Assembly: GCA_000733355.1 (NCBI GenBank)
Contig: JNVV01000002.1
Span: 1-64,000 of the forward strand
DNA: 64,000 bases
Source of the DNA: Falciphora oryzae
Lineage: Eukaryota; Ascomycota; Sordariomycetes; Magnaporthales; Magnaporthaceae
Direction: 5' to 3'
Part shown: piece by piece, positions 43,090 to 61,321 of the stretch
Layout: each line of letters starts with the position of its first letter
Numbering within the stretch: position 1 is the stretch's first letter
Notes under the pieces: generated by a model
What the model saw: only the letters and a program-made list of their open reading frames with translations
Told to the model about the DNA's origin: nothing
Databases searched by the model: none
Translations under genes and position numbers: made by a program

Positions 43090-43666
43090 CAGCTGGCCTG
43101 GAGGAGCACATACACACACTTCTTACATCAAATGCTGGCTCAAATACCTCAAACACACCCAAATTGGCTTGGAGGATGTACATAGGTGCACACACTTCCT
43201 ACATCAAGCACTGGTTCGTAGATGGCTGCGCAGTTGCTGCCACCTGGTAGGCCCTAGCGGACGTCAAACAAGAAAATCGATAACAGAGGTGCCTGCTGTG
43301 CACGCTGACCGTGATTGGGCTGGTAAATGAGGCAGCCGCAGTCACGTTTTGTCGACATAGGTGGACCCTGTTCTCCAATCCTGCACAGAGTTCCGTTTGT
43401 TCCAAGGAGATCCGTTTGTTCCAGGGAGATCCGGAGACGTGGACCACCCGACTACGCTGGACGAACTGGCAAATACTGGTATCCAAAGCAAACCGCCGAC
43501 CTGATTTCCTACGCAAAGAAAACACAGAGATAAAAAAAAAGGGAAACAGGGGGGGAGAAGCAAGCAAGAAAACGGAAGAAACAAGAGAAGTCATCAACAT
43601 GTCAAGCAAAACCTGGGTACAGATCCGGAAGTTTTACTCATGTACCGAAGCCCATCAAGCAAAACA
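42312..43666. other. Intergenic with microsatellite and local duplication
   Basis: Mostly featureless. The only structure is the duplicated block with a (CA)n tract, listed separately. Confidence 0.5.
43037..43212 (+). repeat. Tandem duplication carrying a (CA)n microsatellite
   Basis: TGGCTCAAATACCTCAAACACA begins copies at 43037 and 43136. Both continue into related CTGGCCTGGAGGA / TTGGCTTGGAGGA and ACACACTTC(T/C)TACATCA blocks. The first copy is expanded by about 17 CA units (roughly 43054-43088). Confidence 0.7.
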
Positions 43667-44538
43667 TGGTATACGCTAACCCCTGTGTGAGCTCGGTAGT
43701 TCCTACCACCCGACTTCACGTTTTTCCCCGACGGCGTCATTGCGCTGGGACGCGTGATCCCCGACCCACGGCGACCGACTGTCACGCTCGCCTCCCTGGG
43801 CCCACAGTCAGAAAACCCGACCATCCCATCCCAGAAGCCAAGATCCTCGTCGAGAGCAACTGCGCCTTTTCGTCGATGAAGAGCCGGTCGTTCGGTTCCC
43901 GGTTGCTAGCCAAGGTCCTCGAGCTAGCCTCGGCCGACGGCAAGACGGACGTCTCGTGGTCTGTCAATAAGTCCTACAGCGCAGTCCGCCACGAGGTCCG
44001 CACGCTGGACGGCGTCTTCACCCCGGCGGCGCTGCAGGCCATCACGGAGCTGGAAGAGGTGAAGCGGCACATTAAAAGCGGGATTCTCAGCAAGCGGCGC
44101 GCGTACATCATCTCCGGGATCCGCGTGGCCCTGGATTCGATCACCGTCACGGAACACGAGGAGAGGAAGACAGGGGTGTCCGTCGGTGCATCCGGCCCCG
44201 CGCCGACCGCGGTGCCGGTGGAGCTGGGAGGCGGCTTGTCGGGGAGCAGCGAGGGGAGCTGGACGAGGTCATTCAACACGGCGCCGGGGGTCATCTTCGC
44301 GTACCGGCTGCATGTGATTCGGCCAAAGTGGTGCGGCGGGGTGGAAGGCGATTTGTTTCCGGACACAGAGGCCTTCTTCACCGGGGATGGGGGAGATGAC
44401 GACGAGGAGGAAGATATGGAGCTGGTCGCTGTGGACGCCGCGGTAGCTCGCGAGGACATGCACTTGGATGACGATGTGTTCAGCGAGGATCAGAAGCTTG
44501 AGGACGAGGACGAGGAGTTTTATATTGTAACACATTAG
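43667..44538 (+). pseudogene. Gasdermin-like protein 1 (HET-Q1/RCD-1-like), apparently broken
   Basis: The long downstream frame (about 43830-44538) carries the pattern I associate with fungal gasdermins: 'AVRHEVRTLDGVFTPAALQ', a helix, 'KRRAYIISGIRVALDSITV', a Gly/Ser-rich hairpin, then 'GVIFAYRLHVI', with an acidic C-terminal tail. The family's N-terminal strand region ('DFTFFPDGVIALGRVIPDP') is present but in another frame (43667 to about 43840). Two stop codons precede it in that frame (near 43688 and 43697), no ATG lies in register, and a small indel near 43830 is needed to join the halves. Known gasdermins form plasma-membrane pores after proteolysis. As it stands this copy should not yield a full-length protein unless an unusual splice removes the lesions. 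It lies 1.1 kb upstream of a broken S8 protease on the same strand. Family call is by pattern only. Confidence 0.5.
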
Positions 44539-45647
44539 TCCCGGAGGCGGGCCGTGACGGAATGTCTTCCTAATGCTCTCTTTATCTTCTCTTTTCCTTT
44601 TCCCTTCTACATTTCCCCCTTCCCCATGTCCTCTTTGACCCCTTAGCCCTCTTCATTACTGCCATTGGGCCCTTGAAGCTCGTTGGTAAACCCTAGCATC
44701 GCTTCCTCCAGCTAACTAGGTACCTAGATGCCTTACAACAGGATACAGGATGGCTGGCTGTACCTACAAGCCGAGGCAATGCATAATATCGAGCTTGTAG
44801 TAGTCCAAACGATAATTAATTTCTAGGCTCATCACTGTTTCCGGTCTCAAATTCGCTGGTGACAATGACCACCACCTCCCTGTCCCCCGGGGGGTAGGTA
44901 GGTACCTACCCTGGTATGTTTCTGGGTCGTACTTGGCCACCCCGCCGTGTTTGCAGCTGTCTATCAGGCTTTTTCGCCTTCCACACAACAAAGCCGGGCG
45001 GGAGGGCTCTAGAGAATCATATTGGGAAACACGGGCTGGCTACAGGCCTTGTTAAGGTATCCTACCGCCGCAAGCCTTATGAACCAACAAAGGTATCTGG
45101 AGCTACAAGGGTAACTAAAGTCACAAGGCACAGCGGGTGGTACTAAGTTAGGATCCTTTTGGCGGGCCGCGGAAACGTAATTATCTACATAAAGTCGTGG
45201 AAATGCGTGGAAGTACTTTGTTCGCGGATGCGTGGGTTCGAATCCCCTTGTGACCACCCGCCCGTTTTCTGTGCTGTGCTCCAATCCTGACCGTATAAGT
45301 CCCCGAAAGGCTCCAATCAAGGGACCTTTCAAAGGGGATTGGCTCTTTTTTTGGGCTTTGCTCCGGAGGGCCAACAGAACTTGACAAAGCCACAAAGGTA
45401 TCTCAGCCACAAGGGTATCTCAGCTAACAGGGGTAAGTATATACACAAGCCACGGCCTGCTAAAGGCTGCGGCATCAAGCCGCGCATGTCTGGAGGTGAA
45501 TGATATGCCAATGTGGGATTCCCGGCCGCGAGCCTCGCCGGGCCGGCGGCGAACCTCACAACACCGACTACGAGCTAGCATATCCGAATCCATTCCCAAA
45601 TCCACTTGATTTATCCTCTTCCTCTTTCTATCACCAAGCCGCGCATC
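44539..45647. other. Spacer between gasdermin-like 1 and protease 1
   Basis: About 1.1 kb. It carries two AGGTACCT palindromes (44716-44727 and 44895-44910), an imperfect direct repeat CAAAGGTATCT...ACAAGGGTA (about 45089 and 45395), and a lone B-box-like GGTTCGAATCC (about 45235) that I did not accept as a tRNA. Confidence 0.5.
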
Positions 45648-48592
45648 ATGGCCAGACGCGTGCCCCCGTATTCGGAGCCACCGTATCCGGTGCTGGAGCC
45701 GTTTGCTGCCACGATCACCAGCACAATTATGACCGCCGTTGCCGAACAACGCATTCGGCCGTCCGACCCTTTCTACTCACCGGCAACCGATACTGCGATC
45801 GGCCTCTACCTTATCCGTACTCATCTTGAATGGTTCCCAAGTCGCCGAATCGAGCCTGGTGTCGAAGCGCTTTGCCATATGCTGCTCGGGGAACTTGATG
45901 CTGTTTTCGGCACTGTACGCTGCACACCCTTAACCTTTCCGTGTTTCCATTTTTGTCTCCTTCCACTTCCCATTCCCATCCTATAACCTATTCCTAGTTC
46001 ACGCATTATATCTTCCATCCCGCCGCTTTCGTTTTCACTAAGACAGTGTTTGTTTAGCCCCACGAAGAGACATTGAGGTCCAAGATTCTATCTCGCATTT
46101 TCGGAACCCGGCCAGATGGGGCGAATATCTTGGGGTCTCTCAGGACCCGAACAGAAGAAGTGTGGAAACTTAAGGAACTATGCGATTATATCTTGGATAT
46201 ACTCGCTCGGCACGAAGACGAGGATGAAGACGAGGATGAACCTTTGGAACCGTGTACGACCGCTGGCACATCAGCCTCCGTTACCGACAGAGCCTTGAAC
46301 ACACTCGAGGTGATCAGCCAGTGTAACCCGCTATCCCACGGGGTTTCGGGCATCACCAGCTCAGCGAGTACCTGGCACCCTACTCGGCTTTGCCTCGACG
46401 GCGCGGATGATGACATCCGAGTCCTCGTCTCAGGCTCCAGGGATGCTGGATACTGGCAAGAATTTCGCATCAGAACGTGCGTTTCCTTTCCAAAATTGTG
46501 TCTCGCCCCAGCCCACTAACCAAGAGGACAGTCAGATAGAATGCCCTGTTGACCAGCATCGACAATCATTCGAAAGCCAGGAGCTCTCCTTCTGTCATTA
46601 ACGAGCGATGGAGGCGGCTTCACACTGCTCGGTGTCGAAACACTGGAGCAAATTCTCGACGCTGGTCCAGGCGAGTCTCTCGCGGGGGTGCTTCGCAAAT
46701 ACGAGTTCGGAGTGAAAGACAGGGTGTCGCTCGCACACACTTTGGCACGAGCCTTCTGGCAGTAGTAGGTAGCACTTTTATTTACCGAATTTTCTTTCCA
46801 GCATCCATCCTTTGTCCTATCCTTTTTTTATTTTACCGAGAAAATGCCAACCCAGCCTGATACAGTAACGGCCCGGATCGGATGTGGGCGAAATGGACAA
46901 GCGACACAATCTGGTTCATGCCCGAAAAGGGGAGCGAGCAACAGGAGGATAAATTGCCTCTCCGACCTTGCGTTTCGCTCGCATTCCGGGACGGCGAAGT
47001 GTCGTCCGACGTCCCCATTATCGATGACTTGCCGACACACCCATTTCCCTGTATCCTCGACATAGGCGTCCTCCTGCTTCAGGTCGGGCTGGGGAAACCC
47101 TTGACGACACCGAAGCAGGGTGGCTTTGTCAAACGGCTCAACCTCAGCCACATGATTGCGCTGGACGCGCAGAAGGATCTGGAGAAGGCAACTTGGGACA
47201 ACTTTTTTTTGAAGAGACTTTTTGATCATGTTGTGGGTTTCTGCCTGGACAGCAAGAACTTCACCGAGAGAGGGGGCATTCTGGCCTACAGGGAGATCTT
47301 CTACGAGAATGTCGTTGTGCCACTCGCGTGGCTGGCGAAGCCCGGGGACATCACGTACCTGAGCAAAAAAAAAGTTCCCTAGGAGCGAAAGAGTGGGCTC
47401 CCCCAAAAGTGAAAGGGTAGAAGCGTCCGGCACAGAGACAGTGGAGCCCTCCGAGAGCAAGAAACTTGAGCCGCAGCCACACGCGGAGCCCTTCGAAAGG
47501 GAGGCCCTATTCCACAGCAAGCTCGACCCCGAACTGTGGCTTGACAACACCAAGAAAATTTGCGGATTCGTAGCGCTGAAGCGCCGAGCCCAGAAAGTCA
47601 AGGTCCCGGTTCGAGTTGCCATTCTAGATACGGGTCTGAACAAGCAGATGGATATCTTCAAGCAGAAGGAGAAGGAGGGACTGCTTAAAAGGGTCACAGG
47701 CTAGAAAGACTTCGTCAACCCAGGAGCCTCCGAATGGGTGGATTCACATGGTCACGGAACTTTGATGGCAAGGCTTCTTATGGAGTGCGCTCCAGAGGCG
47801 GAGATTCTTGTCGCTCGAGTTGCCAAAAATACTAAGGAGCTGAAGAATAGCCTTGGAAGGATCAAAGAAGTAAGTGGTCTGACCCCTCATTTCCGGTCAC
47901 CGGTACTGACCGTAACGGATAAATAGGCAATTCTTTGGGCCGGGGAGCGCGGCCGAGCCGACATCATTTTTATGTCCTTTGGCATTTCACCCAAGAAGGG
48001 TCAAGAGATAGCGGAGGCAATCAGTATTGTGGAGAGGGACCGCAACAAGAAAATCATCTTCCTCGCCAGCGCGGGGAATTCGGATTCGGACAGCGAGAGC
48101 TTTCCGGCGTGCCATCCCTCTGTCATTGCTGTTTACGCAACCGACAAGCATGGGCAGGGTCTTCCATCCAACCCGATAACCCCAGAAGGCAGCGCTTGTG
48201 TCCTAGGCACTTACGGCGTACCCCCGGACACCCTGCGACTCGAGTTCGCCGATCTTTATCCCGATATCTGCGAGCCTGGCTCTTCTGTTGCCACGGCCGT
48301 TATGGCGGGCGTCGGCGCGACGATGCTTGCGTACGCAACAGTGCTCCCTTCAATTATGCAGATCCCGTACAAGCACGTGTTCAAGCAACTCTGGACCACG
48401 AAAGGAATGGAGGCTCTTCTGGACATGGTGGGCGAGGTGGGCTCGAAAACAATGCCGCTCCGATCCGTCAAGCTCCCAGCTTTTTGGAAGAACCGTCACA
48501 GCGATGGGTGGAGGTTTGCTTTGTTCCTCCACACCCAAAACAAGGTCCAGGACTCAATTCCGTGGTATACTGAGACGGAGTTGGATGATTAG
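45648..48592 (+). pseudogene. DUF7580-like / S8 subtilisin-like protease 1, disrupted
   Basis: Recognisable exons are 45648-45914, 46058-46476, roughly 46580-46764, 46866-47869 and 47927-48592. The N-terminal helical part reads like DUF7580: 'TLEQILDAGPGESLAGVL', 'RVSLAHTLARAFWQ', 'HPFPCILDIGVLLLQVGLGK'. The peptidase has the Asp motif 'VRVAILDTGLN', the His motif 'DSHGHGTLMARLL' and the Ser region 'EPGSSVATAVMAGVGA', so the S8 triad residues survive. Lesions: no splice choice keeps frame around 46477-46580; nine A at 47365-47373 shift the frame (eight would not); and TAG at 47702-47704 lies between the Asp and His motifs where Trp or Gln is likely. Homologues such as Podospora HET-Q2 cleave and activate a neighbouring gasdermin. 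Confidence 0.7.
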
Positions 48593-49291
48593 TAGCGGCG
48601 GCTACCCCCCTAATTCTGCTTAGCTAGGTACCTTTGGGGGGGAAAGGGGGTTGCTCGGCATGGGGTACTGCCATAATTGAGGTCGGACAGCCGTGGTAAA
48701 CTTGGACACGATCTTTTGGGCTATTGCAGGGCTAATTCTATGCGTGGTCTCGGTCTTTGTGTACAGCCGGCCATCATGTATCCTGTTTGGTTATTGTCAC
48801 CTCCGTTGGTTAGTATGCCCTATTGTTTGGGTCCCAGTTGTGACAGTGTTTCCCCTTCCGTCATTGTCACCTCTGTTGGTCATTGTGGCCGGCTGCCCCC
48901 GGGCGCACCTGCCGACCCGGGCCGCCAGAAAGTGCGGGAGGCACGCAAATGCCTTTATCTAGGAGGTTAACGTTCAACTTGTCCGTCTCTTTATTCCCTT
49001 TTTCTTTGATATTCCATTTTCCCTTTGTATTCCATTTTCCCTTTGTATTCCGTTTTCCTTTTGCTATTTTATTTCCCTTTGTTATTTTTCTTTCCCCTCT
49101 CTTTGCCTTTTTCCTCATTCCTCGTTTTATTCACCTATGCCCGTAGGTATTTAAACCCCTTCCTGCTGTCGATTATCAATGCCCATGAGCCTTGCCCCTT
49201 AACTTGGTGACTACCAGCTACCAGCTACCAGCCTACCGCCACCCACTCCCACCCCCCTCTTGACGCGGCACCTGCTGCGCGAAAGCACCCA
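48593..49291. other. Intergenic with an 18-bp minisatellite
   Basis: About 700 bp with an AGGTACCT motif at 48626-48633 and a pyrimidine-rich minisatellite (49011-49090) just before the HEAT gene. Nothing else is seen. Confidence 0.5.
49011..49090 (+). repeat. 18-bp tandem repeat, about four units
   Basis: ATTCCATTTTCCCTTTGT is repeated exactly once (49011-49046) and then in two diverged copies. The strand is strongly pyrimidine-biased. Confidence 0.65.
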
Positions 49292-50839
49292 ATGGGCAAC
49301 TGCGGACCTGGTGGGGTTGCTGGGCGTCTGCTCGGCTTCAAGCGCGTCTCCGAAGATCGAACAGCATCTTCAGTGCTGGATCTCACCAATGCCTGCCTCT
49401 CCAAGTTCGACGAGGCCATGGCCTCGTGGCCGAACGAAGGCATAGAAAAACGCTCCGCAACCTTCAACCTCTGGGTAGATTCTGTTGGTGTCGCCGCGGA
49501 GTCGGGACTCTCACTCGACTCGAAACTTCGATCACGCCCGAACGACCTGATCGTGGTAAAGGACCTCCTCCTAATACTTTTCGACTCACTGACTGACTAC
49601 ATCACCCTCACCCTTTCGCAGGCCAAAAAGAATCTCGGTTACATCGTTCAGAACATCGACTTAGCTATCAGGGACTTGCACTTGACGAGTCGCAAGGTGA
49701 CCCGTCTCGCCGGAGAAGCATTGCGAAGCCTTAGGGCCGACAAGACATTTGACCCCGACATACACGAGGAGCTGAGAAAGCACCTTGAGTGCCTGCTTCT
49801 TTGCCGGCGGACAGAGCATGGGCGCGCCTCTGACGAACCGATCCTCCCGGACATCGTGTCATTCTCGAATGACCCATACCCAGACATTAGGAAGACAACA
49901 GTGAGGGTTCTCAGGTGGCGATCGGACTTGTCAGAAACGATCCTAAACGGGATTGAGGCATGGCTCGAAGATCCGGACGTAGACCCTCAGTTCCTTGCGG
50001 CTAAAGCCCTTGGTGGGCAGTCGGACCTGCCAGAAACGATCCTCCAGGAACTCGTGGCACTGCTCAATGATCCGACCCCATCCTTTAGGTTAATTGCGGC
50101 TAACGCCCTTAGGTGGCAGTCGGACCTGCCAGAAGCGATCCTCCAGGAACTCGTGGCATTGCTTAAAGATACGGAGTCCGCCCTAAGGCACCTTGCGACT
50201 GCGCCTTTTCACGAGCAGAGAAACCTGCCAGAAGCGATCCTCCAGGAACTCGTGGCATTTCTCAAAGATCCGGACCTTGACATTAGGTGCTTTGCGGCTG
50301 CGACCCTTGGTAAGCAGTCGGACCTGCCAGAAGCGATCCTCCAGGAGCTCGTGCCATTGCTCAAAAATCCGGACCTACATGACGAGTTCTGGGCGTCTAG
50401 AGTCTTGCGTGACCAGTCGGGCCTGTCAGAAGCGATCCTCCAAGACGTGGTGGCGCTGTTCAAGGATGCGACCTGGTCCACTAGGCAGGCAGCGGTTTCA
50501 GCCGTGGGTCGGCAGTCGGGCCTGTCAGAAGCGATGCTGCAGGATATGGCGGCTTTGTTGGAAGACCCGAACGAGGACGTTAGGTTCGCTGCAGTCAATG
50601 CTCTCGGTCGGCAAGAGAAGCTGCCAGAAACGATCATTCAGGGTGTGGCGGCCTTGTTGGAAGACCCGAACGAGGACGTTAGGTTCGCTGCAGTCGTCAC
50701 TCTCCGTCGGCAAGAGAAGCTGCCTGAAGCGATCATTCGGAGTCTGGCGGCCTTGTTGGAAGACCCGGACGAGCGCGTTAGGACCGCTGCAGCCTCGCTT
50801 GCAGAGACTGCAAGCAATAGCGAGATTAGCGCGGACTAG
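49292..50839 (+). CDS. NLR-like repeat protein 1: helical N-domain plus HEAT array, 515 aa
   Basis: Single exon. Residues ~25-150 form a helical domain with the pattern 'FNLWVDSVGVAAES..LSLD' and then 'RLAGEALRSLRAD'. The same pattern opens the C2H2/TPR/HEAT protein at 57359 ('FNIWCAKLGV...SIDFRLKD'). From 49928 there are nine consecutive 33-residue HEAT-like units, each about 'LPEAILQELVALLKDPD' plus 'VR..A..ALG.QS'. No NACHT/NB-ARC, protease or membrane segment is seen. Such repeat arrays usually bind protein partners. Here, beside gasdermin/protease pairs, a sensing or adaptor role is plausible (inference). The gene reads intact from ATG to TAG. Confidence 0.7.
   Translation: MGNCGPGGVAGRLLGFKRVSEDRTASSVLDLTNACLSKFDEAMASWPNEGIEKRSATFNLWVDSVGVAAESGLSLDSKLRSRPNDLIVVKDLLLILFDSLTDYITLTLSQAKKNLGYIVQNIDLAIRDLHLTSRKVTRLAGEALRSLRADKTFDPDIHEELRKHLECLLLCRRTEHGRASDEPILPDIVSFSNDPYPDIRKTTVRVLRWRSDLSETILNGIEAWLEDPDVDPQFLAAKALGGQSDLPETILQELVALLNDPTPSFRLIAANALRWQSDLPEAILQELVALLKDTESALRHLATAPFHEQRNLPEAILQELVAFLKDPDLDIRCFAAATLGKQSDLPEAILQELVPLLKNPDLHDEFWASRVLRDQSGLSEAILQDVVALFKDATWSTRQAAVSAVGRQSGLSEAMLQDMAALLEDPNEDVRFAAVNALGRQEKLPETIIQGVAALLEDPNEDVRFAAVVTLRRQEKLPEAIIRSLAALLEDPDERVRTAAASLAETASNSEISAD
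49928..50818 (+). repeat. Nine 99-bp HEAT-coding units
   Basis: The period is exactly 99 bp. The motif CAGAAGCGATCCTCCAGGA recurs almost unchanged in the middle units, and GAAGACCCGAACGAGGACGTTAGG is shared by two later ones. Units are more diverged than in the array at 60330. Confidence 0.85.
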
Positions 50840-50925
50840 AGAGGAAAAATAGTTCTCAACTGATATTGATGGCGGCGAAGCTATCCACAACAGGTAGGTC
50901 GTCAAGCCTGCTTCGACGACCCTTT
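50829..50925 (+). repeat. 3' flank shared with the HEAT gene at 61 kb (copy 1)
   Basis: GCGCGGACTAGA, AACTGATATTGATGGCGG, GCTATCCACAA and GTCAAGCCTGCTTCGA occur in the same order and spacing at about 61322-61411. Similarity extends past the stop codon, so the two HEAT genes share a duplicated 3' end. Confidence 0.85.
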
Positions 50926-51029
50926 AGGTAGAAGCATTCAAGAACCCCAGGCTATGGAAGTGCGCGGATCACTCAACCCCTGCTGTCTCGTTATAGCACC
51001 ACGTCAGGTAACTAACACTAAATCCATTC

Positions 51030-52160
51030 AGGCAGCACCTCGTTGAGGATCTTTGCCCTTTTACATGCATTGCCAAGGACTGCCCTACCCTCCATCTCCT
51101 GTTCTGCTCACGAGAGGAGTGGGAAACGCATGCGAAAAAGAGTCGCCTACCGTGGTGCTTGCAATATCCGTTCTGCGAATACGACGACACGGGGCAGCCT
51201 TCGATGGAGGCCATGTCTGTTCACCTTCGAGCCAACCACAAAGGCTGGCTCAGGGGCCATTCCATGTCTACCCTTATCTCTTGGTCTGCTGTCCAAAAGA
51301 TAGGAATCACGACCTGTGATCACATTCTGGGAGAGGCCTACGACTTCGCTCTTCGCGCTCTTCCATGGCCCAACCCCGAAATACACGACTCAGCGCGGAA
51401 GCCTAGTGCATGGAAACTTCCGGAAGAAGATGCTGAAACCTCGTTTGGCCGCTGAATCCGAGAGCCGGATGTTGAGGGAGCGGAAGAGATCGAGCTGCAG
51501 CTGTGCGACTACGATAACGCCGACCACTCTGAACCGAGGTCAGCTGATCTGAGGGAGAACACTGATTACTTTGACGAGGGTGGCTATTTAGACGACAAGC
51601 TCGAGGACAAGTCTTTAAGGCGGCAAGGCGACCGGGGTAGCGCTGCCCAGTCGAACCACTCCTTCGATAATGAATCAACCTCCCCATCTTTTGAGATCCG
51701 CTCAAGCCACTCGACGGCCACTGTGTTACAGGAGGGGGTGGAAACGAGCGAATTTGAAGCGGTAATGGAACCGAGAAAAAGGTGTTCCTCAAGTGAAAGC
51801 GCTCAAAGCAACCTCGCCGCGCCAATTGCTCTGCCACAGGCTCTTAGTTATACCCTCTTGATAGGTTCCTGGACCTGCCGGCCGACCCCAGATAGATTTA
51901 GACCCCTTACGTCGGTACCCCTAGACACTTTGGAAGGCCTGGTCGCCCCTTGTGAAATTTCCGTTTGGCTATTTCTGTACTCTGATGGTCTCGACAATTT
52001 TTGCAAGCGTTCGAACCGGGTCAGCTCATATCGCAACGTATCCCAAATGAGGCTCGCGTCATGTTCAGGGATGCTAAGAGGCAAAATCCTCCGCAGCACC
52101 ACCTCTTTCCCTGGGAACGCACCGCGATGTCATATTGATCAACATCGCTTCGGTCTTTGA
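51030..52160 (+). pseudogene. Relic of a C2H2-TPR receptor (N-domain and most TPRs missing)
   Basis: One frame reads 'HLVEDLCPFTCIAKDC', 'LLFCSREEWETHAKKSRLPW' and 'CLQYPFCEYDDTGQPSMEAM', then 'SVHLRANHKGW', a Cys/His pattern like the degenerate fingers of fungal C2H2-TPR proteins. A TGA at 51453-51455 interrupts it (CGA would fit). The frame then gives an acidic linker and 'EIRSSHSTATVLQEGVETSE', matching 'EARSSHSATLLRGDVEESG' of the 57359 gene just before its first TPR. After 'EAVMEPRKR' the similarity stops, although the frame stays open to 52160. There is no start codon or N-domain. Confidence 0.55.
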
Positions 52161-52533
52161 TCTTGTCAAAGTCAAATCGTTGTCAGTGCTGCCAAGATAT
52201 GAGAAGGGCCTCGATTTGCCATAGGTCAGGTGGCTGGCACCCACTTCCCCTCCATTCCGGTATATCCAAACGTTTCGGGCGCGCCAGCCTCAGCCACACT
52301 CAGCGCGAAGCATATGATACTCTCATCTTGATTGGCTCAGTTGCCTAGCATTTGTCTGGTGGCGTACAATTGCCCGGTTTGTGCCATGGCATTCGGGCAA
52401 AGGAGGGGTCCTTCGGCGCCAAGTCGTTGGGCCGTGATTTTCAGGCCCATGAACTTTTGCCTCGGGGCATATTGTATACAATGACATGCCTCGCTGGGCC
52501 GTCACCAACACACTCTCGCCCTAAAGCAGCATA
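52161..52533. other. Spacer before gasdermin-like 2
   Basis: About 370 bp, presumably the promoter of the gene at 52534. No motif recognised. Confidence 0.5.
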
Positions 52534-53286
52534 ATGCCGATACTGCTGTATTTTCGTGCCCCACGCTTCGATATCTCGCCCGAGAGCCCCACGGCACCGA
52601 GGTTGGGCAGCATCTTCTCAAGCCTTAGGCGTCTGACGGCGCCGCTGAATCAAGATGAGGCACTCTCGGTCCCGACGGGCCTCGTCAACCAGACCGGCAC
52701 CGTTGACTTCCAGGACAAGGCCGTGAAGAGCGTCATGGGGAGCCTAGGCCAGGGGCTCGCCAGCAGCGGCAGCCTGATCTACGCGTTCGCCAGCGATAGG
52801 CACGACACGTACCGGTGCGAGGTGCTCGAGACGGCCGAGTTCGAGCCGGACGAGCAGTTTGTCAAGGACAGCATCACCGCGTCCCCTCGCGTCCAGGACT
52901 TCCTCCGGGACACAATCTCCTTCTTCGGCGGCAGGCGCGTGTACATGATCATAGGCCTCAAGATCGCCACCGGCTTCGCCGTGTCCAGCAACACCAGCGC
53001 GGAGCACGGGCCCCGGCTCAAGGTCGACCTGAGTTTTGGCGCCTCGCGCGACGTCTTGCACGGCCCGGCCTCGTCCAAAATCGTATTCGCCTACCGCGCC
53101 ATCAAGATCTCGCCCAAGGGGGACGGCGAGGTCAGGTATAAGGACCTCAGTGGCGGCCAGTATGGCATTGGCGACAACTGCGGGGAGGGGGAGCCCCCGT
53201 CTTGGGACATGGAGCCCGTGGGAGAGGAAGATATACTTGAGGAGTTTCCGGACGCGGGGATTGTGGAAATCCAGCACCAGGTCTAG
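52534..53286 (+). CDS. Gasdermin-like protein 2 (HET-Q1/RCD-1-like), 250 aa, intact
   Basis: Single exon of 250 residues, the size of known fungal gasdermins. The segment order fits the pore-forming domain: an N-terminal strand ('ILLYFRAPRFDISPE'); 'TYRCEVLETAEFEPDEQFV'; a helix ('RVQDFLRDTISFF'); the strand 'RRVYMIIGLKIATGFAV'; a Ser/Gly-rich hairpin; and 'SKIVFAYRAIKISPKGDGEV', which parallels the conserved 'G..LAFR' strand of animal gasdermins. The last ~30 residues are acidic, as in an inhibitory tail removed by cleavage. Known fungal members (RCD-1, HET-Q1) permeabilise the plasma membrane. Its stop lies 141 bp from the stop of an intact S8 protease on the other strand, the expected activator. 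The call rests on pattern and context, not on a search. Confidence 0.6.
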   Translation: MPILLYFRAPRFDISPESPTAPRLGSIFSSLRRLTAPLNQDEALSVPTGLVNQTGTVDFQDKAVKSVMGSLGQGLASSGSLIYAFASDRHDTYRCEVLETAEFEPDEQFVKDSITASPRVQDFLRDTISFFGGRRVYMIIGLKIATGFAVSSNTSAEHGPRLKVDLSFGASRDVLHGPASSKIVFAYRAIKISPKGDGEVRYKDLSGGQYGIGDNCGEGEPPSWDMEPVGEEDILEEFPDAGIVEIQHQV

Positions 53287-53427
53287 ATGGTAGACCAGAG
53301 GGTGCCTCTTGGGCCAACTACTTTATCTATAATCGTGCGATTCAAACAACTTCGCGAAGCTAATTTCACTATATATGCTCACCCGCGCGACCAAAATCCT
53401 TGTGTAGACAGCTCTAAGCGCCCCGTA

Positions 53428-56400
53428 TTAGGTTGACTTTCTCAGCGGCCCGAGAGCTATCCTAATTTCTTGTTGGATCCATTCATCCGTCCGCTGTTCG
53501 CCAAATGTCTGCCACGGCCGGATATAAGAGTAGTCGCGGGTCCTAGAGTGCGTCAACTTGTCGAACATGCGGCGCAGACCCCCGACTCTACGCAGCTCCA
53601 GCCAGTCGTCGTTCGTGAGGAAGGCACGGGCGTAGTCGAGGATTACGGCAGCCATGCCGGCGGCGACGGGGGCTGCACACGACGTGACATTCATGTAGCG
53701 TTGGTCGCTCCCCAGCCGCTCGGGCCACGCGGACAGGACGGCCTCGCCCACCACGGCGAGGGTCTGGTCCTTGGCGGCGCCTGGTGTAAACACGGACGGG
53801 TTGCCGGCGCCGTCGAACGAGTGCACGCATATCACCTCGGGCGCGCGGGCCGGCCACGCCACTTCGTCCGACCGGTTCTTGCCATCGTTCGAGGCGGCTG
53901 CGAACAGGCTGACGCCTTGAGCTGCGGCGTGCCGGATCGCCTGAAGCATGGAATCCTTGGGTTCCATGTCGTGCTGACCTTCGGCGAAGCCAAACGACAT
54001 AACAATGATATCGACCTTCCACTTGTCGACAGCGTGCCAGATCGCCTAAGCCATGTCAGCCAAGTTCGTATACCATTTTCTGAGTACAAATGGAAAGGGC
54101 ATAAATGGTATCATTGGCATAAAACGAAGAGGGCCGGAAGGGGCGCGTGGGGCCGGTCTACCTGGGCGACATTTTTTGGATCTTTTTTCGGGTCTGGTTG
54201 CGACTCCTCAAACACTCGGGCCACATATATATCGGCCATGGGCGCAACTCTAGCCAGTAGCGTGGAGAGGTGCGTGCCGTGACCGACGTTATCCTTCCAA
54301 TTCTCGGACCGGTTGTCTCCCAAGGGCTCGCCGTCGACCCAGCTCCGATATACGACTTCGCGCCCGCGGAGGTACTTATCCTTCTGGGTTTCGGACAACT
54401 CGATACCGCTGTCCAGGATTGCGATGGCCACCTTCTTCTGATTGCGGCGGTAGATGATACTTCGCTTGTCGAGATAGACCCGGTTCAGCATGTCATTATA
54501 GAACCCAAACCATTCTTCAGTCTGTTTTATCCTGAGTTTTATTGTTAGCACAGCGCTGCTAAGTAGTGGATCGGAAGGGGAAGAGAAAAGGGAAGGCACT
54601 GTGGCATGTTCGTACTTGGCGCCATCTATGAAATCCTCTTTGCCACTGCGAAGACAGGCCTCACGTTGGTAACGCGTTTCATCCCGTCTCGGTGCTATCA
54701 AGGCTGGTACCTATCAGTTAGCTAGGTATTCTGCGCAAGAGCTACTTATAGGGATGTACTGTACCCAGGTTTCCTGCCGTTCCATTGGGAGCATTGAGAG
54801 GCTCAACTCTAAGTGAGAGCGGATATGTGGCATTCTCCCCACGAATTTCGTCGTCGTCCATCAGACGACCCAACTGCATGCCATATCCCGTCTCCAGGGC
54901 GGTCGCCAGCGGGGCGACCACGCATGTGAGCACGTAGTAGCGCAGGGGCCCCTCCTCAAACAGCAACTGGTCTGGCAGGGTGCTCGGCGGGCGGAGGACT
55001 AGGCAGGCGCGGATCGCTTCGCGGAGGGAGGAAGGGATATCCCGCGACGGGTGCTTCTCAAGCTGTTCGAGCGCGTTTAGTGCCAGGGCGCCATCCGCGT
55101 TGCTGGGCGCCATCGCCGTTCGACATGCTTCGTTCAACCGACCCCTGTCGCAGCGGTTCTTTCCGCACAACGCATCAAATTTGGTACGGGTGGCAATCTC
55201 CAGGAGCATGATGCCGAGGGCCAGCACTGCTGGGTGAAGGTGGTACCGAGACACTGTTGCGGGATTGGCCTTGGGCTTTTCTTGCCGGCGCAGTAGGTCG
55301 GCCGAAAGGTATGGCTGCTTTATTGCAAGCAGCCGGCCCTCATCGCCGGCGCACCGAGTGAACAAGATTTTGTCGCTGCTCCAGCAGGATTCCGTCTGAA
55401 GCCAAATACCCGGGTACAGATACAGGACGGACGTGGCCAAGATGTAGGCCAACGCCAACCTATCCTTATCGTTGTACCTCGAAATGCGTGCCGTGGATGG
55501 TGCCGCAGGGTCATCCCCTAGGAGCTCGTGGAGCGACTCCATGACTGAGTGTTCACAGGCCTCTCCCGGCGCCGGTGGATGAAGGGCCCAGAGCATCTGT
55601 TTTTCGTGCTCAGCCCACAGATTAACCTTCACTGCGTCACTCCGCAGCATCAGGGGGCAGAGATTGTTGTGGACCGGGGATTTCGGGGTTTTCGCTGCCG
55701 GTCCACGTCTGCTCGGCTTGGTAAGCTATTTGTTCAAAGCAGCCTGGCGCGACGAAGAGGAAACAAAAAGGTATTGCTGTATCGCTCACATGTAGGCCAT
55801 GACACGGACGTCTGTCACCTTCCAAGTGACGTGATCTTTACAGACGGGAAGAAGAATTTCGAATTTGGCGTCGATGTTATGGAGGGCACGCCCCGGTTGT
55901 GGCGCCGCAGCAGCCTCCAGCAGGAGCTGGCGGTGACGGGTCAGGCTGAGACGGGCCTCCCGGGCATTCGGGGGCCGCCGCCAGCGGCACCCGCAGTTCC
56001 AGTGCCGACCCAGAAGGCCATGCACGCTATCGGCCAGCTTCTTGACGCCGTTGCTCGGGTGTCTCGCCAGGTTCGGGGGCGTGTTTCCTGCCTGCGGTGG
56101 CTCGAAAAATAATTTCAACAGGTGGCGACTCGCCTTCTTGATAATCTTTAGAAACTTTTCCCGCTCGTGCGTCTCTTTCGAAGTCTTCTCGCGGCGGAAA
56201 AGGCGAATGGCGCCAGCCATTTCGGCCAAGCAACGTTGCACCTTCTTTTCGTCTGCCGTCTCCGTCGCCCCACCTCCGGCGCCGTCTTCGTCGTCGTCAC
56301 TCTCCATCCCGCTTGCCTTATCCTGCTCGAGATCTACCTTTCGTGCGATCGCCCAGGTTCGGGCCTGGAGCGCATGTAATTCTGGGAACTGCTCCGCCGG

Positions 56401-56819
56401 GTCATCGGCCGTGGCGCCGCCAGTTGTAAACGGCCAGAGAAACGGGGACTTGATAAGCGGGCATCCTCTACTGGTTAGCAAGCTGTTGTCTCGTTACACC
56501 CCGGCACAGTGAGTGTAGCGGATCGCGCTCATACCTTTTGCTCAAATAAGCCGAATCTCTTCTGGATGCGGCTCTCCAGCGCCTTCAGTAGCTGGGTTAC
56601 AACAGCCTCATCCAGCCCGGGCTTCCACTCGCCGCGAGATGCCAACACAGCCGCTTCAATATTCATAATATCGACGTAGCAGTCGCCTAGGCATTGCTTC
56701 GGTACTAGCTGTGCGTCGTCGTCGTCGTCTTCCCCGTCGCCGTCCCGCTCGCTCCGCAGCTGGAGGGCCAGCATGTGGAACACTGGAATAACATCGCGAA
56801 GCAACTGAAGCTGCCACAT
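53428..56819 (-). CDS. DUF7580-like / S8 subtilisin-like protease 2 (HET-Q2-like), 987 aa
   Basis: Predicted exons are 56819-56535, 56448-55790, 55708-54765, 54703-54616, 54531-54162 and 54045-53428. All are in phase, for 987 residues. The acceptors of exons 2 and 3 are the least certain. Residues 1-650 are helical and DUF7580-like ('HWNCGC', 'EARLSLTRHRQLLLEAA', 'YHLHPAVLALGIMLLEIATR'). The S8 domain follows, with Asp ~699 in 'VAIAILDSGIELSE', His ~743 in 'NVGHGTHLSTLLARVAP', oxyanion Asn ~835 in 'LFAAASNDGKN' and Ser ~904 in 'NVTSCAAPVAAGMAAVI'. It has no signal peptide, so it should act in the cytosol. By analogy with HET-Q2 it should clip the adjacent gasdermin-like protein. No lesion is seen, unlike protease 1. 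Confidence 0.8.
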
Positions 56820-57358
56820 TGGTGTATTCAACTGGAGGTGATTTTCAGAAGGACCACTTCAAATAAACCCGTGTTTATCTTGAACTTCGTTTCGCCTTCT
56901 GTGCAATATTTCCCCTTAGGAATGCCTAGCCTTGCCTGTTTTTATTAGGCAGCCAGGACGGTTGGGCTGCCTTTCAGCTCCCCCACTTTGCATGTGCCTG
57001 TACGTGGTATCAAGGAGGTGTTTTTGGACAGTACATACATCTCCATCTGTACCTAGGTACCTACCTAGATACCTAACCTACCACCGACCTACCCACTACA
57101 CCTTAATACCTACATCGAATGTTTCAATGTGACCATGGTTGTTGGCCACTTATATCTGCTGCTACTCGTATTTGACCGCGTTTGCCGCGGCACAGATACG
57201 CTCGGCGTATTGAATTTGCGGGTAGATTGATACCTGATACAAGACATGGACCGCATCCTCGATCAGGCTGCTTCCACAAAGATCGACTGCGGCCTTTCCA
57301 CGTCCAGAATTTGGAAAATAACGCCGCGGAGAGCTCGCAACTCTAAAATTGAAAGGAA
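56820..57358. other. Divergent promoter region with AGGTACCT-rich tract
   Basis: Lies between the starts of protease 2 and the C2H2-TPR-HEAT gene. It contains the ACCTA-rich block ACCTAGGTACCTACCTAGAT (57051-57070) and its continuation to 57082. No other element is recognised. Confidence 0.5.
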
Positions 57359-60300
57359 ATGTCTACCGTGAGACTATCCAAGCCTTCGGGCAGCCTTGCT
57401 CTTCAGGCAGCCGACTGCCAGATATTAATGCGGAAGCTTAAAGAGGAGAACGAGAGAGACGAACACGAACCCAACGAACGGGCCGGCCGTCAGACGGCCG
57501 AGTTCAATATCTGGTGCGCCAAGCTTGGCGTAAACGAACACGGCCACAGGTCGATCGATTTTCGACTCAAGGACGTTCCACAGATATGCGGCGCCATCGG
57601 GCTACTATTACAATCGCTGAGATTCGATCTCGGCCGCCTCCCTATGGTGTCAGCGACGGCAGCCACACCCGTCGTACTGCTCGGAAAATCGCCAGGCCAC
57701 GATCACCCGGTGGCAGCGGAGCGAACCTCCACTGAATCAGGCGAAAGCGAGGGTGACTACGTTGACGGTGGAGGCAGTGATACGTCATCACTGTCTTTCC
57801 CTAGCCTGTCCTCACCTGAGAGCTCGGCGGACGAGGAGGAAACATCGGCGGGCCCGACATCCGGTGCCGCAGCACTGTGGAGGCATATCGAGGACACGAT
57901 CGACCGGCTTCACGGGCTCGCGAGACGGGTTCAAGACGCCGGGGCCAAGGATCGACAGGAGCGTATCGACCGCTACCGCAGGAAACCGGGGCCTAGCCAG
58001 GTGTACGACCTGTTTCTCAGGATAGCGGCGGAAAAGCTCCAGCGGGGTAACGACTTGAAGCGAGCCACAAAGGTCGTCAAGGAAAGAATAGCAGAATCTT
58101 TCGCTCGACGGCGGATGAAGTTTGCCTACCTAAAATCACATGAAGCGAGGAGAGTCATCGGTCCACCAGCCGATCCGTCCCCAGGACCGGCTGTAGTGTG
58201 TCCACCAAGCCACAAGCGCGAGCAGACAGGCCCGGCGCCGGCACCCCAGCACACGGGCGGCGGTTTAGCCGCTCTACCAGACGAGGACACAATTTACACC
58301 AGGACCCAGAACACCAAACTCCGAGACACGCCCGAGATGCGCCAGCCCGAGCGGCCGGAGAGCGTGGCGTCGGCTACTCTGCGTCACCATGGCTTTCCCA
58401 GACCGCCCGATGTCACTGGCAAGGACGGCTTCGTGTGCCCGTATTGCCGCCTGTATTTCCCCGCCCGAGAAGCGCGCATGGATCGNNNNNNNNNNNNNNN
58501 NNNNNNNNNNNNNNNNNNNNNNNNNNNNNNNNNNNNNNNNNNNNNNNNNNNNNNNNNNNNNNNNNNNNNNNNNNNNNNNNNNNNNNNNNNNNNNNNNNNN
58601 NNNNNNNNNNNNNNNNNNNNNNNNNNNNNNNNNNNNNNNNNNNNNNNNNNNNNNNNNNNNNNNNNNNNNNNNNNNNNNNNNNNNNNNNNNNNNNNNNNNN
58701 NNNNNNNNNNNNNNNNNNNNNNNNNNNNNNNNNNNNNNNNNNNNNNNNNNNNNNNNNNNNNNNNNNNNNNNNNNNNNNNNNNNNNNNNNNNNNNNNNNNN
58801 NNNNNNNNNNNNNNNNNNNNNNNNNTATCCAAGACTTTGAGCCTTACTTCTGCATTTTCGAAAAGTGCGACGCGCCGTTCGACGTACCGAACACGTTCGA
58901 GGGCCTTCTCAGCCACATGCAGGCGGCCCATCTGCCTGAGCAGTGGCACATCGAAACAGCGGAAGGGCACAAAGAGTTTGATGATAGGAGCGACTTTGAG
59001 CGCTACATCCGGAACCAAGGAGACATACCCGAATCGCTGCTGCCTACAATGATGGAGTTTGCCCGGCGTAGGGTGGCGCTGGTCTTCGACCGCTGCGCCT
59101 TCTGTGGCGGCTATCCGGACGCTATCGAGAAGGATTTCCCTGACCCGAGCATGCCGGGCGCGCAAGAAAAGCTACGCAAACACATCAAGAAACACCTGCA
59201 TGACATCGCACTGTTTCTCCCACCGGACCGCGACGATCTAGTCGGCGAAGAAGATAGCGAGAACGGCAACAGCGCCGCGGGTTCAGGGGCCGGAAACCAG
59301 GCAAGGAGCAAGAAGGGGTCGGGTGGCTCCGACGCCCCAGCGGTTTCGGTTTGCGGCCGGCAAAGCTGCGACTGTCGTCCCGAGGACGGATCGGAGCCGG
59401 ACCACGACCTACCGCCTGCCGCGCTTGACGACACAAATGGCTCGCCTGAGGATGACCGAGGTGAACTCTCGCCAGAGCAGTACCATGATTGGGATGAAGT
59501 TTTGCGACGGGTAAAGCCACGGGACATTCCCGAACCCGACGAAGACAGTTTTCGGCTCAAATGGGGCGCTCGTCGGGCTCTTGAGGCCAGATCAAGTGAC
59601 GCCGCCAGCGAGGCCCGCTCAAGCCATTCGGCCACTCTGCTACGGGGGGACGTGGAAGAGAGCGGACTCGAGGCGGTAATGGAAACAAGAAAAAAGGTTC
59701 TGGGAGAGGAGCACCCTGATATTCTGAATAGCATGGCCAGCCTCGCGTGGACATACAGGAATCAGGGCCGCTTGGAAGAAGCCGAACTGCTAGGGGCGCA
59801 GGTAATAGAGGCAAGAAAGAGGTCACTAGGAGAGGAGCATCCCGATACGTTGGCCAGTATGGCCAACCTGGCGTCAACGTACAAGGCCCAGAGCCGGTGG
59901 AAAGAAGCCGAATCGATCGAGGAAACGGTGATGGAAACGAAGAGGGTGCTGGGAGAGAAGCACCCTGATACTCTGACAAGCATGGCCAACCTCGCGTTGA
60001 CATATAGGTGTCAGGGCAGGTGGAAGAATGCCGAGACGCTTGAAGATCAAATCTCGAGCAGACGCTTTGAAAGCGTACCGATGGTGGACCTCGACGAAGC
60101 CATCCAAACGGGACGAAACTTTATCGATGCCGCTCCGATGGATCATTTCAACCGGTCCGGCCGATTAAACAACCTCGGATTTCTTCTAAGCAACAAATAC
60201 CTTCGTACTGGAGAGATAACGGACCTCAAGGAAGCCGTCTGGTTATTCCGGGACGCCATCGCCGACACCCCGCCGGGCTTCCCGCTTGGTCCTTGCTATC

Positions 60301-61112
60301 TGAGCGACATGCTTTCGGACTTACCAGACCTGCCCGGACTGATCCTCCCGGATATCGTCTCATTGTTGAAAGATCCAGGCCCAGACATCAGGAGGGCAAC
60401 AGTGGCGGTTCTCCGGCAGAGACCGTACCTGCCAGAAACCATCCTCCAGGGACTCGTGGCATTGCTCAAAAACCCAGACCCGAACGTTAGGTCTTCCGCA
60501 GTTTCAGCCCTGGTTCCGAAATCGGGCCTGCCAGAAGCGATCCTCCAAGATATAGCGGCATTGCTCAAAGACCCAGACCCGAACGTTAGGTCTTCCGCAG
60601 TTTTAGCCCTGGGTCCGAAATCAGGTCTGCCAGAAGCGATCCTCCAGGAACTCGTGGCATTGCTTAAAGACCCAGACCCGAACGTTAGGTTCTCCGTAGT
60701 TTTAGCCCTGGGTCGGAAACCGGGTCTGCCAGAAGCGATCTTCCAAGATATAGCGGCATTACTTAAAGACCCAGACCCGGACGTTAGGCTTTTCGTAATT
60801 TCAGCCTTGAGTCGGGAACCGGACCTGCTAGAAACGATCCTCCAAGATATAGCGGCATTGCTTAAAGACCCAGATTCGAGGGTCAGGCTTTCCGCAATTT
60901 CAGCCCTGCGTTGGAAACTGGGTCTGCCAGAAGCGATCCTCCAAAATATAGCGGCATTGCTTAAAGACCCAGACCCGGACGTTAGGTCTTCCGCAGTTTC
61001 AGCCCTGGGTCGGAAACCGGGCCTGCCAAAAGAGATCCTCCAAGATATAGCGGCATTATTAAAAGACCCAGACCCGAAAGTTAGGTCTTCCGCAGTTTTA
61101 GCCCTGGGTTAG
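57359..61112 (+). CDS. NLR-like repeat protein 2: N-domain, C2H2 fingers, TPR, HEAT (gap inside)
   Basis: It starts at ATG 57359. Part 1 has the helical N-domain shared with the 49292 gene ('GRQTAEFNIWCAKLGV', 'SIDFRLKDVPQIC'), an acidic Ser-rich linker, and the first finger 'DGFVCPYCRLYFPARE' just before the gap. Part 2 (from 58826, different register, so the gap is mis-sized or holds an intron) has fingers 'FCIFEKCDAPFDVPNTFEGL' and 'RCAFCGGYPDAIEKDF...H'. Three 42-residue kinesin-light-chain TPRs follow ('GEEHPDTLASMANLASTYKA'), then a CHAT-associated-type TPR ('GRLNNLGFLLSNKYLRTGEI'), then eight 33-residue HEAT units to TAG 61110-61112. No NTPase or effector enzyme is visible. A sensor or adaptor for the neighbouring protease/gasdermin pair is an inference. 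If the TAG (CAG-like site) were read through, the frame would run to 61274. Confidence 0.7.
58486..58825. other. Assembly gap (340 N)
   Basis: A run of N inside the C2H2 part of the repeat-protein gene. The reading registers on the two sides do not match for a 340-bp gap. Confidence 0.99.
59697..60065 (+). repeat. Three TPR (kinesin light chain type) coding units
   Basis: Units of about 126 bp each encode 'LGE(E/K)HPD(I/T)L.SMA.LA.TY...(G/S)R...AE'. They are clearly related at both protein and DNA level. Confidence 0.85.
60330..61112 (+). repeat. Eight 99-bp near-identical HEAT-coding units
   Basis: Units of exactly 99 bp encode about 'LPEAILQDIAALLKDPDPNV', then RSSAV.ALG.K.G. Blocks such as GATATAGCGGCATTGCTTAAAGACCCAGA and GTTAGGTCTTCCGCAGTTT are shared letter for letter between several units. 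The homogeneity points to recent internal amplification or concerted evolution, as in fungal NLR repeat domains. Confidence 0.9.
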
Positions 61113-61321
61113 CGGCCGGGCCTGCCAGAAGCATTAGTCCAGGGTTTGGCAGGATTGCGGAACGATCTGGTCCAAGATGGCAGGTTTGTTGTGTACGACA
61201 ATCCACAAAATATACCAACAGACACTGACGGGGACAAGCAGGAAAGCAGCTACTGGCAGAATTGGACAAGATAATGAGATTGTAGCTGGGGTGGTTACTG
61301 AAGAGTTGTAGTAGCGTGATT

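Follow-up and report, generated by a model that had tools for sequence, protein, structure and literature searches.

Two adjacent gasdermin-protease cassettes with a candidate third component in the fungus Falciphora oryzae

When gasdermin and protease genes lie side by side in a fungal genome, do they form a self-contained killing unit, and do the repeat-protein genes next to them belong to it? The question is raised by the first 64 kb of contig C2 (JNVV01000002.1) of the Falciphora oryzae assembly GCA_000733355.1; this stretch of 64,000 nucleotides (nt) is hereafter called the window. A preliminary description of it had proposed an expanded and duplicated cell-death locus. The whole assembly (50.2 Mb, 123 contigs) was searched, and the window proves to hold two adjacent, evolutionarily distinct three-gene cassettes, A (43.6-52.2 kb) and B (52.5-61.1 kb). 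We consider it probable, with ample room for doubt, that these are two distinct death cassettes, each combining a putative tail-restrained gasdermin, a protease that joins a probable pseudokinase to an S8 domain, and a protein without a NACHT match made of an N-domain (ND), a C2H2 part and repeats. This reading, which draws in part on analogy with known systems, is supported by homology, the predicted gasdermin fold, the protease motifs, and linkage with matching divergence over 15 cassettes. The features are the following.

43599..44538, forward strand: GSD-A, cassette A; fungal gasdermin with exon 1 at 43599-43616 and exon 2 from 43700, frame broken at ~43810-43846
45648..48592 (start approximate), forward strand: protease 1, cassette A; DUF7580 at 46876-47328 and S8 subtilase at 47609-48439
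49292..50839 (start inferred), forward strand: third gene of cassette A, 5' part; ND at 49349-49678, then eight or more HEAT units of 33 amino acids (aa) each
51012..52160, forward strand: third gene of cassette A, displaced C2H2 remnant and tail; matches the C2H2 part of a sister gene on contig C17
52534..53286, forward strand: GSD-B, cassette B; intact fungal gasdermin of 250 aa, with a pore-forming domain and a short acidic C-terminal tail
53428..56819, reverse strand: protease 2, cassette B; six predicted exons, 988 aa, with an N-terminal region, DUF7580 and S8 subtilase
57359..61112, forward strand: third gene of cassette B; ND at 57383-57685, masked stretch at 58486-58825, C2H2 just after it, TPR, and a HEAT array of 7 units

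Protease 2 and GSD-B are oriented tail-to-tail, and the third gene of cassette B stands head-to-head with protease 2 across a gap of ~540 bp.

The gasdermins and their proteases

By profile comparison, and for GSD-B also by predicted fold, GSD-A and GSD-B both classify as gasdermins, in line with the preliminary description, which had recognized a gasdermin pattern in each. The GSD-B family profile matches RCD-1-1 at E 3.8e-9 and that of GSD-A at E 0.0036, and the two families are related to each other at E 8.9e-19. RCD-1-1/RCD-1-2 form the top match of GSD-B by sequence profile as well as by fold. The gasdermin fold, on the absence of which the earlier proposal would have foundered, was recovered by fold comparison of the predicted structure, the GSD-B model being of modest confidence (predicted local distance difference test score, pLDDT, 58.6). 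In a search of the PDB with the single GSD-B sequence, RCD-1-2 (E 0.026) ranked below designed beta-trefoil proteins, which were matched via a repeated 20-residue stretch; the profile search was decisive here. GSD-B is a single open frame with 71 homologues, fungal in every case where the organism is named, and its Gaeumannomyces matches are 62-71% identical, with the exception of one remoter paralogue (36%). Around residue 165, GSD-B is without ~20 residues that most aligned relatives possess.

For GSD-A, previously placed at 43830-44538, the assignment as a gasdermin stands and the boundaries do not. Judging from the sequence and its relatives, exon 1 is followed by an 83-nt intron, so that the start lies upstream. 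The family match falls into two pieces in different frames, 43700-43846 (E 2.6e-12) and 43810-44532 (E 1.1e-77), so that the assembly shows an interrupted reading frame, and the relatives an open one.

The two proteases, likewise anticipated as S8 enzymes with a common DUF7580-like N-terminus, each carry both domains and are each paired with a gasdermin. Protease 2 is predicted to be spliced from its six exons through five GT-AG introns of 61-116 nt into a product free of internal stops, in which DUF7580 (E 2.1e-21 to 8.4e-21) and S8 (E 1.6e-14) lie on separate exons and the catalytic motifs read AILDSG (Asp), GHGTH (His) and VTSCAAP (Ser). Protease 1 matches S8 and, at the family cut-off, DUF7580 (E 7.4e-5, 26.7 bits); all three motifs are present, with an in-frame stop at 47702 between those of Asp and His, and an intron could account for a change of frame near 47.37 kb. 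Both window pairs thus have the features of Q2L proteases, namely an S8 subtilase beside a fungal gasdermin (fGSDM) gene and the Asp/His/Ser motifs, stop-interrupted in protease 1. The closest named relative of protease 2, from Gaeumannomyces, is 74% identical to it; as GSD-B likewise has its closest named relatives in that genus, the host probably belongs to the Magnaporthales. PF24476 and PF00082 occur together in all 26 homologues returned (from 7,996 scored candidates, at least 26 in all). DUF7580 was found to have a kinase fold; HRD is present in none of the 26 aligned rows and DFG in none of 25 (one row gapped), the positions having been matched by eye, and the domain is probably pseudokinase-like at most. 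Our literature search returned no mention of DUF7580, and a kinase-like nature would offer one interpretation of what is a large, as yet unnamed family of fungal proteins.

Gasdermins and proteases are tightly linked in this genome. Of the 16 gasdermin loci from the genome-wide protein query, 14 have an S8 match no farther than 10 kb away (P 3.5e-22, at a chance of 2% per gasdermin locus), or 12 of 14 when the window's own two are removed (P 6e-19). This agrees with published work, in which ~80% of fGSDM genes are near a protease gene (PMC10197012, PMC10989679). The preliminary description had held that the genes should not be unlinked in all relatives, and indirect evidence indicates that the linkage of genes 1 and 2 does extend across fungi. 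For nine of the 26 protease 2 homologues the contig is equal in size and species to that of a GSD-B homologue (G. tritici, Ilyonectria robusta, Fusarium decemcellulare, F. ambrosium, four Trichoderma and Decorospora gaudefroyi), and two of these protease/gasdermin pairs bear consecutive locus tags, NM208_g303/g304 in F. decemcellulare and CDV31_015803/015804 in F. ambrosium. A Paramyrothecium foliicola record of 1261 aa (P0134) joins DUF7580, S8 and a GSD-B-type gasdermin (residues 972-1246, E 6.4e-88) in one protein. The gasdermin part begins at an internal Met, a sign that annotation has probably merged two neighbouring genes, a true fusion being the alternative.

DUF7580 itself occurs at 29 loci of the genome. 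Of the 13 without S8, five have a HET match no more than 7 kb away (expected 0.53, P 1e-4; for example C9:988938 and HET C9:990066), the 7-kb limit having been set after the distances were seen and the control S8 loci giving 1 of 34; DUF7580 loci with S8 show no HET enrichment nearby (2 of 16, P 0.14). DUF7580 may thus serve several executioners. HET enrichment around the gasdermins themselves was weak and was left unused (3 of 19 within 7 kb, expected 0.78, P 0.04; 6 of 19 within 20 kb, P 0.015).

The third gene and its linkage to the pair

Both HEAT genes open with the ND, and the two window copies share 34% identity over 38 aa (E 5e-6), which bears out the earlier claim of two HEAT-array proteins sharing an N-domain. 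Among 23 fetched S8 loci and the window, the ND adjoins 15 of 17 gasdermin-protease cassettes versus none of eight S8 loci without a gasdermin (Fisher P 4e-5), or none of four when the contrast is limited to S8 loci that share the protease type (P 0.0025). The profile behind these counts was derived iteratively from the very loci to which it was applied, with the two window NDs as seed; it found 11 frames (E<0.01) in round 0 and two more in round 1, and reversed sequences gave no matches.

Genome-wide searches point the same way. The first, with the ND of cassette B, returned four loci outside the window, all adjoining DUF7580 or gasdermin genes. Four genome-wide protein queries yield 19 non-window ND loci, every one with a DUF7580 or gasdermin gene at most 6 kb away (P 2e-38, assuming uniform placement); DUF7580 is that close at 18 of them, and 13 have a gasdermin within 10 kb. 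Without the two loci whose own ND served as query, each of which was also found by the query from the other, the count is 17 of 17 (P 2e-34).

The three genes have also diverged together. Over 15 cassettes, Mantel correlations of their distances are 0.73 for gasdermin-S8, 0.79 for gasdermin-ND and 0.57 for S8-ND, none being reached in 20,000 permutations, and the genes therefore look inherited as units. In nine of the 15 cassettes all three genes have the same closest relative. This is the case for cassette A, whose nearest kin is C17:571k (gasdermin 64%, S8 53%, ND 58% identity), and for cassette B, whose nearest kin is C31:378k (36%, 43% and 38%, respectively); C58:119k and C12:17k pair as closest relatives. 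In 11 of the 15 cassettes the gene bearing the ND stands head-to-head with the protease, and in three with the gasdermin, cassette A of the window being the only tandem case.

Could the third gene be a frequent neighbour in a fast-evolving region, standing outside the pathway of plain two-gene fGSDM/Q2L units? The two-gene cluster is the published unit (PMC10197012), NLR (nucleotide-binding oligomerization domain-like receptor) genes cluster in many Sordariales genomes (PMC12258605), and two of the 17 cassettes gave no ND match. We nevertheless judge this explanation unlikely, given that every one of the 19 non-window ND loci is tied to a cassette or to DUF7580, that the ND distinguishes cassettes from other S8 loci and follows the gasdermin in divergence, and that it is head-to-head in 14 of 15 cassettes. 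Inheritance as a unit also suits a different proposal, that the third protein is a restraint or antidote acting on the protease, the killer being unleashed where the cassette is lost or a foreign allele is met, as in allorecognition, incompatibility or a selfish element. fGSDM systems do operate in heterokaryon incompatibility (PMC12881547). Cassette A, in which gasdermin and protease are both broken, is silent on the order of loss, and we rate this proposal as rather improbable.

The repeats of the third genes are of superstructure-forming types. By pattern, the HEAT arrays have a 33-aa spacing, with 8 units in cassette A (mean identity 47%) and 7 in cassette B (71%); Pfam recognizes HEAT_2 (E 1.8e-29 and 1.2e-40) and, in cassette B, TPR repeats (TPR_10, E 1.9e-33). 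The ND of five sequences fitted no Pfam family at an E-value limit of 10 (NUP160_helical reached E 0.14 in one), and comparison with solved structures in the PDB returned designed proteins and uninformative chains only. A frame on C12 that carries the ND (L038:1023-2111, reverse strand) also matches DUF2278 (E 2.4e-37, residues 3-201), a match that may belong to a neighbouring gene, fusion being the alternative.

The preliminary description had called the repeat proteins NTPase-less, and this is upheld among the matches listed genome-wide, which include neither HET nor NACHT within the window (for NACHT none of 85, with 90 of 128 candidates scored). NACHT and NB-ARC are likewise absent from the Pfam matches of the ND stretches and of the HEAT frames (the best 25 of 32 for the second frame). 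Membership of the HEAT proteins in the NLR class was rejected on these grounds, with two caveats: the genome-wide NACHT scan covered 90 of its 128 candidates, and 340 masked bases (58486-58825) hide the join of two frames in the third gene of cassette B. The only other run of N in the window is at 15515-16452.

A C2H2-TPR relic had also been described. In the C17 sister gene the ND is followed by a C2H2 part that matches 51012-52160, and this segment is accordingly assigned to the first HEAT gene as its displaced 3' part. The C2H2 remnant is real, and Pfam gives no TPR match there. The ND of cassette A is 62% identical to that at C17:566301-566750. By pattern, a C2H2-like segment follows the ND in six of 13 non-window cassettes with an ND and in both window copies, many loci ending there. 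Such a segment, along with the head-to-head arrangement with protease or gasdermin, would be expected if the third gene encoded a cassette regulator, a C2H2 DNA-binding protein acting on a shared divergent promoter, and no sensor. Its HEAT and TPR arrays of similar repeats resemble a protein-binding surface, however, and its zinc fingers are atypical for Pfam (zf-Di19 at E 5e-4, below the cut-off, in one scanned frame); we regard a purely regulatory role as unlikely.

Origin, clustering and decay of the cassettes

The idea of a duplicated set, taken as a local copy, did not survive. GSD-A and GSD-B are 19% identical (genome median 21%) and the two S8 domains 31% (median 31%), and the closest kin of each cassette lie on other contigs; A and B are therefore not recent local copies, and recent tandem duplication is ruled out as their origin. 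A contrary case is C58:113k, whose nearest gasdermin and protease (32% and 38% identity) lie within the same C58 island. The HEAT arrays at 49800-50839 and 60001-61112 are ~50% alike at the aa level and 68% at the nt level despite the distant NDs, and no similar array was found by pattern in the fetched, short parts of other cassettes. Exchange of repeats between the neighbouring cassettes is a possible explanation of this likeness.

Unlike cassettes cluster beyond chance. Seven of all 19 gasdermin loci have another within 40 kb (on C2, C17 and C58), against a random mean of 0.54 (19 of 200,000 shuffles); five have one within 25 kb (9 of 20,000) and four within 10 kb (43 of 20,000), in shuffles that take no account of contig ends or gene density. 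Three of the 19 came solely from inside fetched S8 loci. For the 16 from the genome-wide query, four lie within 40 kb of another (mean 0.38; 2,508 of 200,000 shuffles), two within 25 kb (2,276 of 20,000, not significant) and two within 10 kb (926 of 20,000). Neighbouring gasdermins are 16-32% identical. Side-by-side unlike cassettes make a quantitative case for a fungal 'defence island', a hypothesis put forward in PMC10197012. Neither TTAGGG nor CCCTAA was found in runs of two or more within the window that would mark a telomere at the contig start.

Across the genome, the immune-type repertoire is very large and comprises at least 150 HET and at least 85 NACHT matches, beside the DUF7580 and gasdermin loci. 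A gasdermin match at C70:13578-14106 has no S8 match on its contig. At C9:334443-336127, a DUF7580-S8 protease near the protease 2 type (S8 E 1.5e-68) has no gasdermin or ND match in the fetched 10 kb around it, and 18.7 kb off, adjoining a HET match, lies a 31-aa gasdermin fragment resembling the start of GSD-B (C9:353140-353229); together they look like a broken-up cassette.

Cassette A has itself decayed: its gasdermin and protease are broken and the C2H2 part of its third gene is displaced. Cassette B looks largely intact, apart from the masked stretch and a stop in the repeats of its third gene. The locus might then be a graveyard of relics, a degrading cluster without present function, as the frame change of GSD-A, the in-frame stop of protease 1, the displaced C2H2 remnant and the stop within the second HEAT array, with repeat-like sequence beyond it, would all allow. 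Against this, GSD-B is fully open, protease 2 is predicted to splice cleanly into 988 aa, and both are 62-74% identical to named Gaeumannomyces proteins; we consider a functionless cluster quite improbable. The possibly self-contained sensing and execution locus of the preliminary description thus resolves into two such loci, with the repeat genes as regular third members, of which A is decayed. Repeat-induced point mutation (RIP) was considered as the cause of the decay of A and left no mark in 2-kb steps over 42-64 kb, where single changes would escape; by comparison with the usual limits for RIP, TpA/ApT was 0.57-0.83 and (CpA+TpG)/(ApC+GpT) 1.07-1.23.

A proposed pathway and its known relatives

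How might a cassette work, if our preferred reading of distinct death cassettes is correct? At rest, the short C-terminal tail would keep the gasdermin inactive. The ND-C2H2-repeat protein may detect a non-self or invader cue, as its repeat arrays and the logic of the cassette suggest; this sensor role is the least certain step, and the regulator and restraint roles weighed above are its alternatives. The repeat protein would then contact the pseudokinase part of the protease, which would fit their co-inheritance and head-to-head layout, and the released S8 domain would cut off the acidic tail of the gasdermin, as HET-Q2 does for HET-Q1. The gasdermin, to go by its predicted fold and by HET-Q1/HET-Q2 and RCD-1, would oligomerise in the plasma membrane and the cell would die. 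A broader version is a three-component pyroptosis-like pathway in which ND-DUF7580 constitutes a general receptor module. The occurrence of ND-DUF7580 without a detected gasdermin, and of DUF7580 without S8 near HET, suggests that the executioners are swappable; we offer this version tentatively, as somewhat closer to doubtful than to probable.

Several observations weigh against the reading of death cassettes. To the modest confidence of the GSD-B model is added the Ser motif of protease 2 (53428-54045), which is NVTS where the majority of homologues have SGTS. The third gene was seen in the one genome searched; its ND went undetected in cassettes C17:545k and C4:1243k and is therefore not universal, and the closest relatives of the three genes disagree in six of 15 cassettes. 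Six ND loci (C67, C55, C32, C20, C7 and C58:69k) lie beside DUF7580 without a detected gasdermin, so that the closest tie of the ND may be to DUF7580. All ND queries were drawn from cassettes, and remote ND proteins elsewhere could escape them. In cassette B, besides the masked join, the stop at 61110-61112 falls inside the HEAT array and sequence resembling one further unit lies beyond it.

Among known systems, the cassettes are most like HET-Q1/HET-Q2 of Podospora anserina and the fGSDM/Q2L clusters, with which they share a gasdermin by an S8 subtilase, a short C-terminal tail and many copies per genome. They differ in the DUF7580 of the protease, in its size (988 aa for protease 2, against 388 aa for HET-Q2; PMC10989679) and in the co-inherited ND-C2H2-repeat gene. 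RCD-1-1/RCD-1-2 of Neurospora crassa are the nearest match of GSD-B; RCD-1 is triggered by the encounter of two allelic gasdermins, without cleavage (PMC12881547), whereas GSD-B lies in a protease cassette. Arrays of similar HEAT and TPR units and immune-type gene clustering recall fungal NLRs, HEAT repeats in fungi being paired with N-NACHT (PMC12258605), but the window has no NACHT match and the ND no Pfam family. Clusters of unlike NLRs have been published for Sordariales, with paralogous copies in only 16 of 272 (PMC12258605). As in MLKL and the fungal HELL-kinase/pseudokinase proteins, a kinase-like regulator is linked to a membrane-killing module; here, unlike there, the kinase-like part is fused to the protease and the pore former is separate. 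Fusions of 'other predicted kinase-like domains' to protease domains are noted in the 2025 review (PMC12881547). Bacterial gasdermin-protease operons are prokaryotic, unlike the window cassettes, and are not known to have an ND-C2H2-repeat partner.

The fGSDM-S8 pairs, their copy number per genome and the island idea have already been published (PMC10197012, PMC10989679, PMC12881547). No description of a co-inherited ND-C2H2-repeat gene was found in the available parts of the literature, the primary paper on the Q2L clusters, which may mention one, being outside the search. What is new, compared with the known gasdermin-protease pairing, is that a third gene accompanies it so regularly. According to the 2025 review (PMC12881547), what triggers these fungal sensors is among the major open questions, and a gene that tracks the gasdermin-protease pair over 15 diverged cassettes makes a concrete candidate for the upstream component missing from systems of the HET-Q1/HET-Q2 kind.

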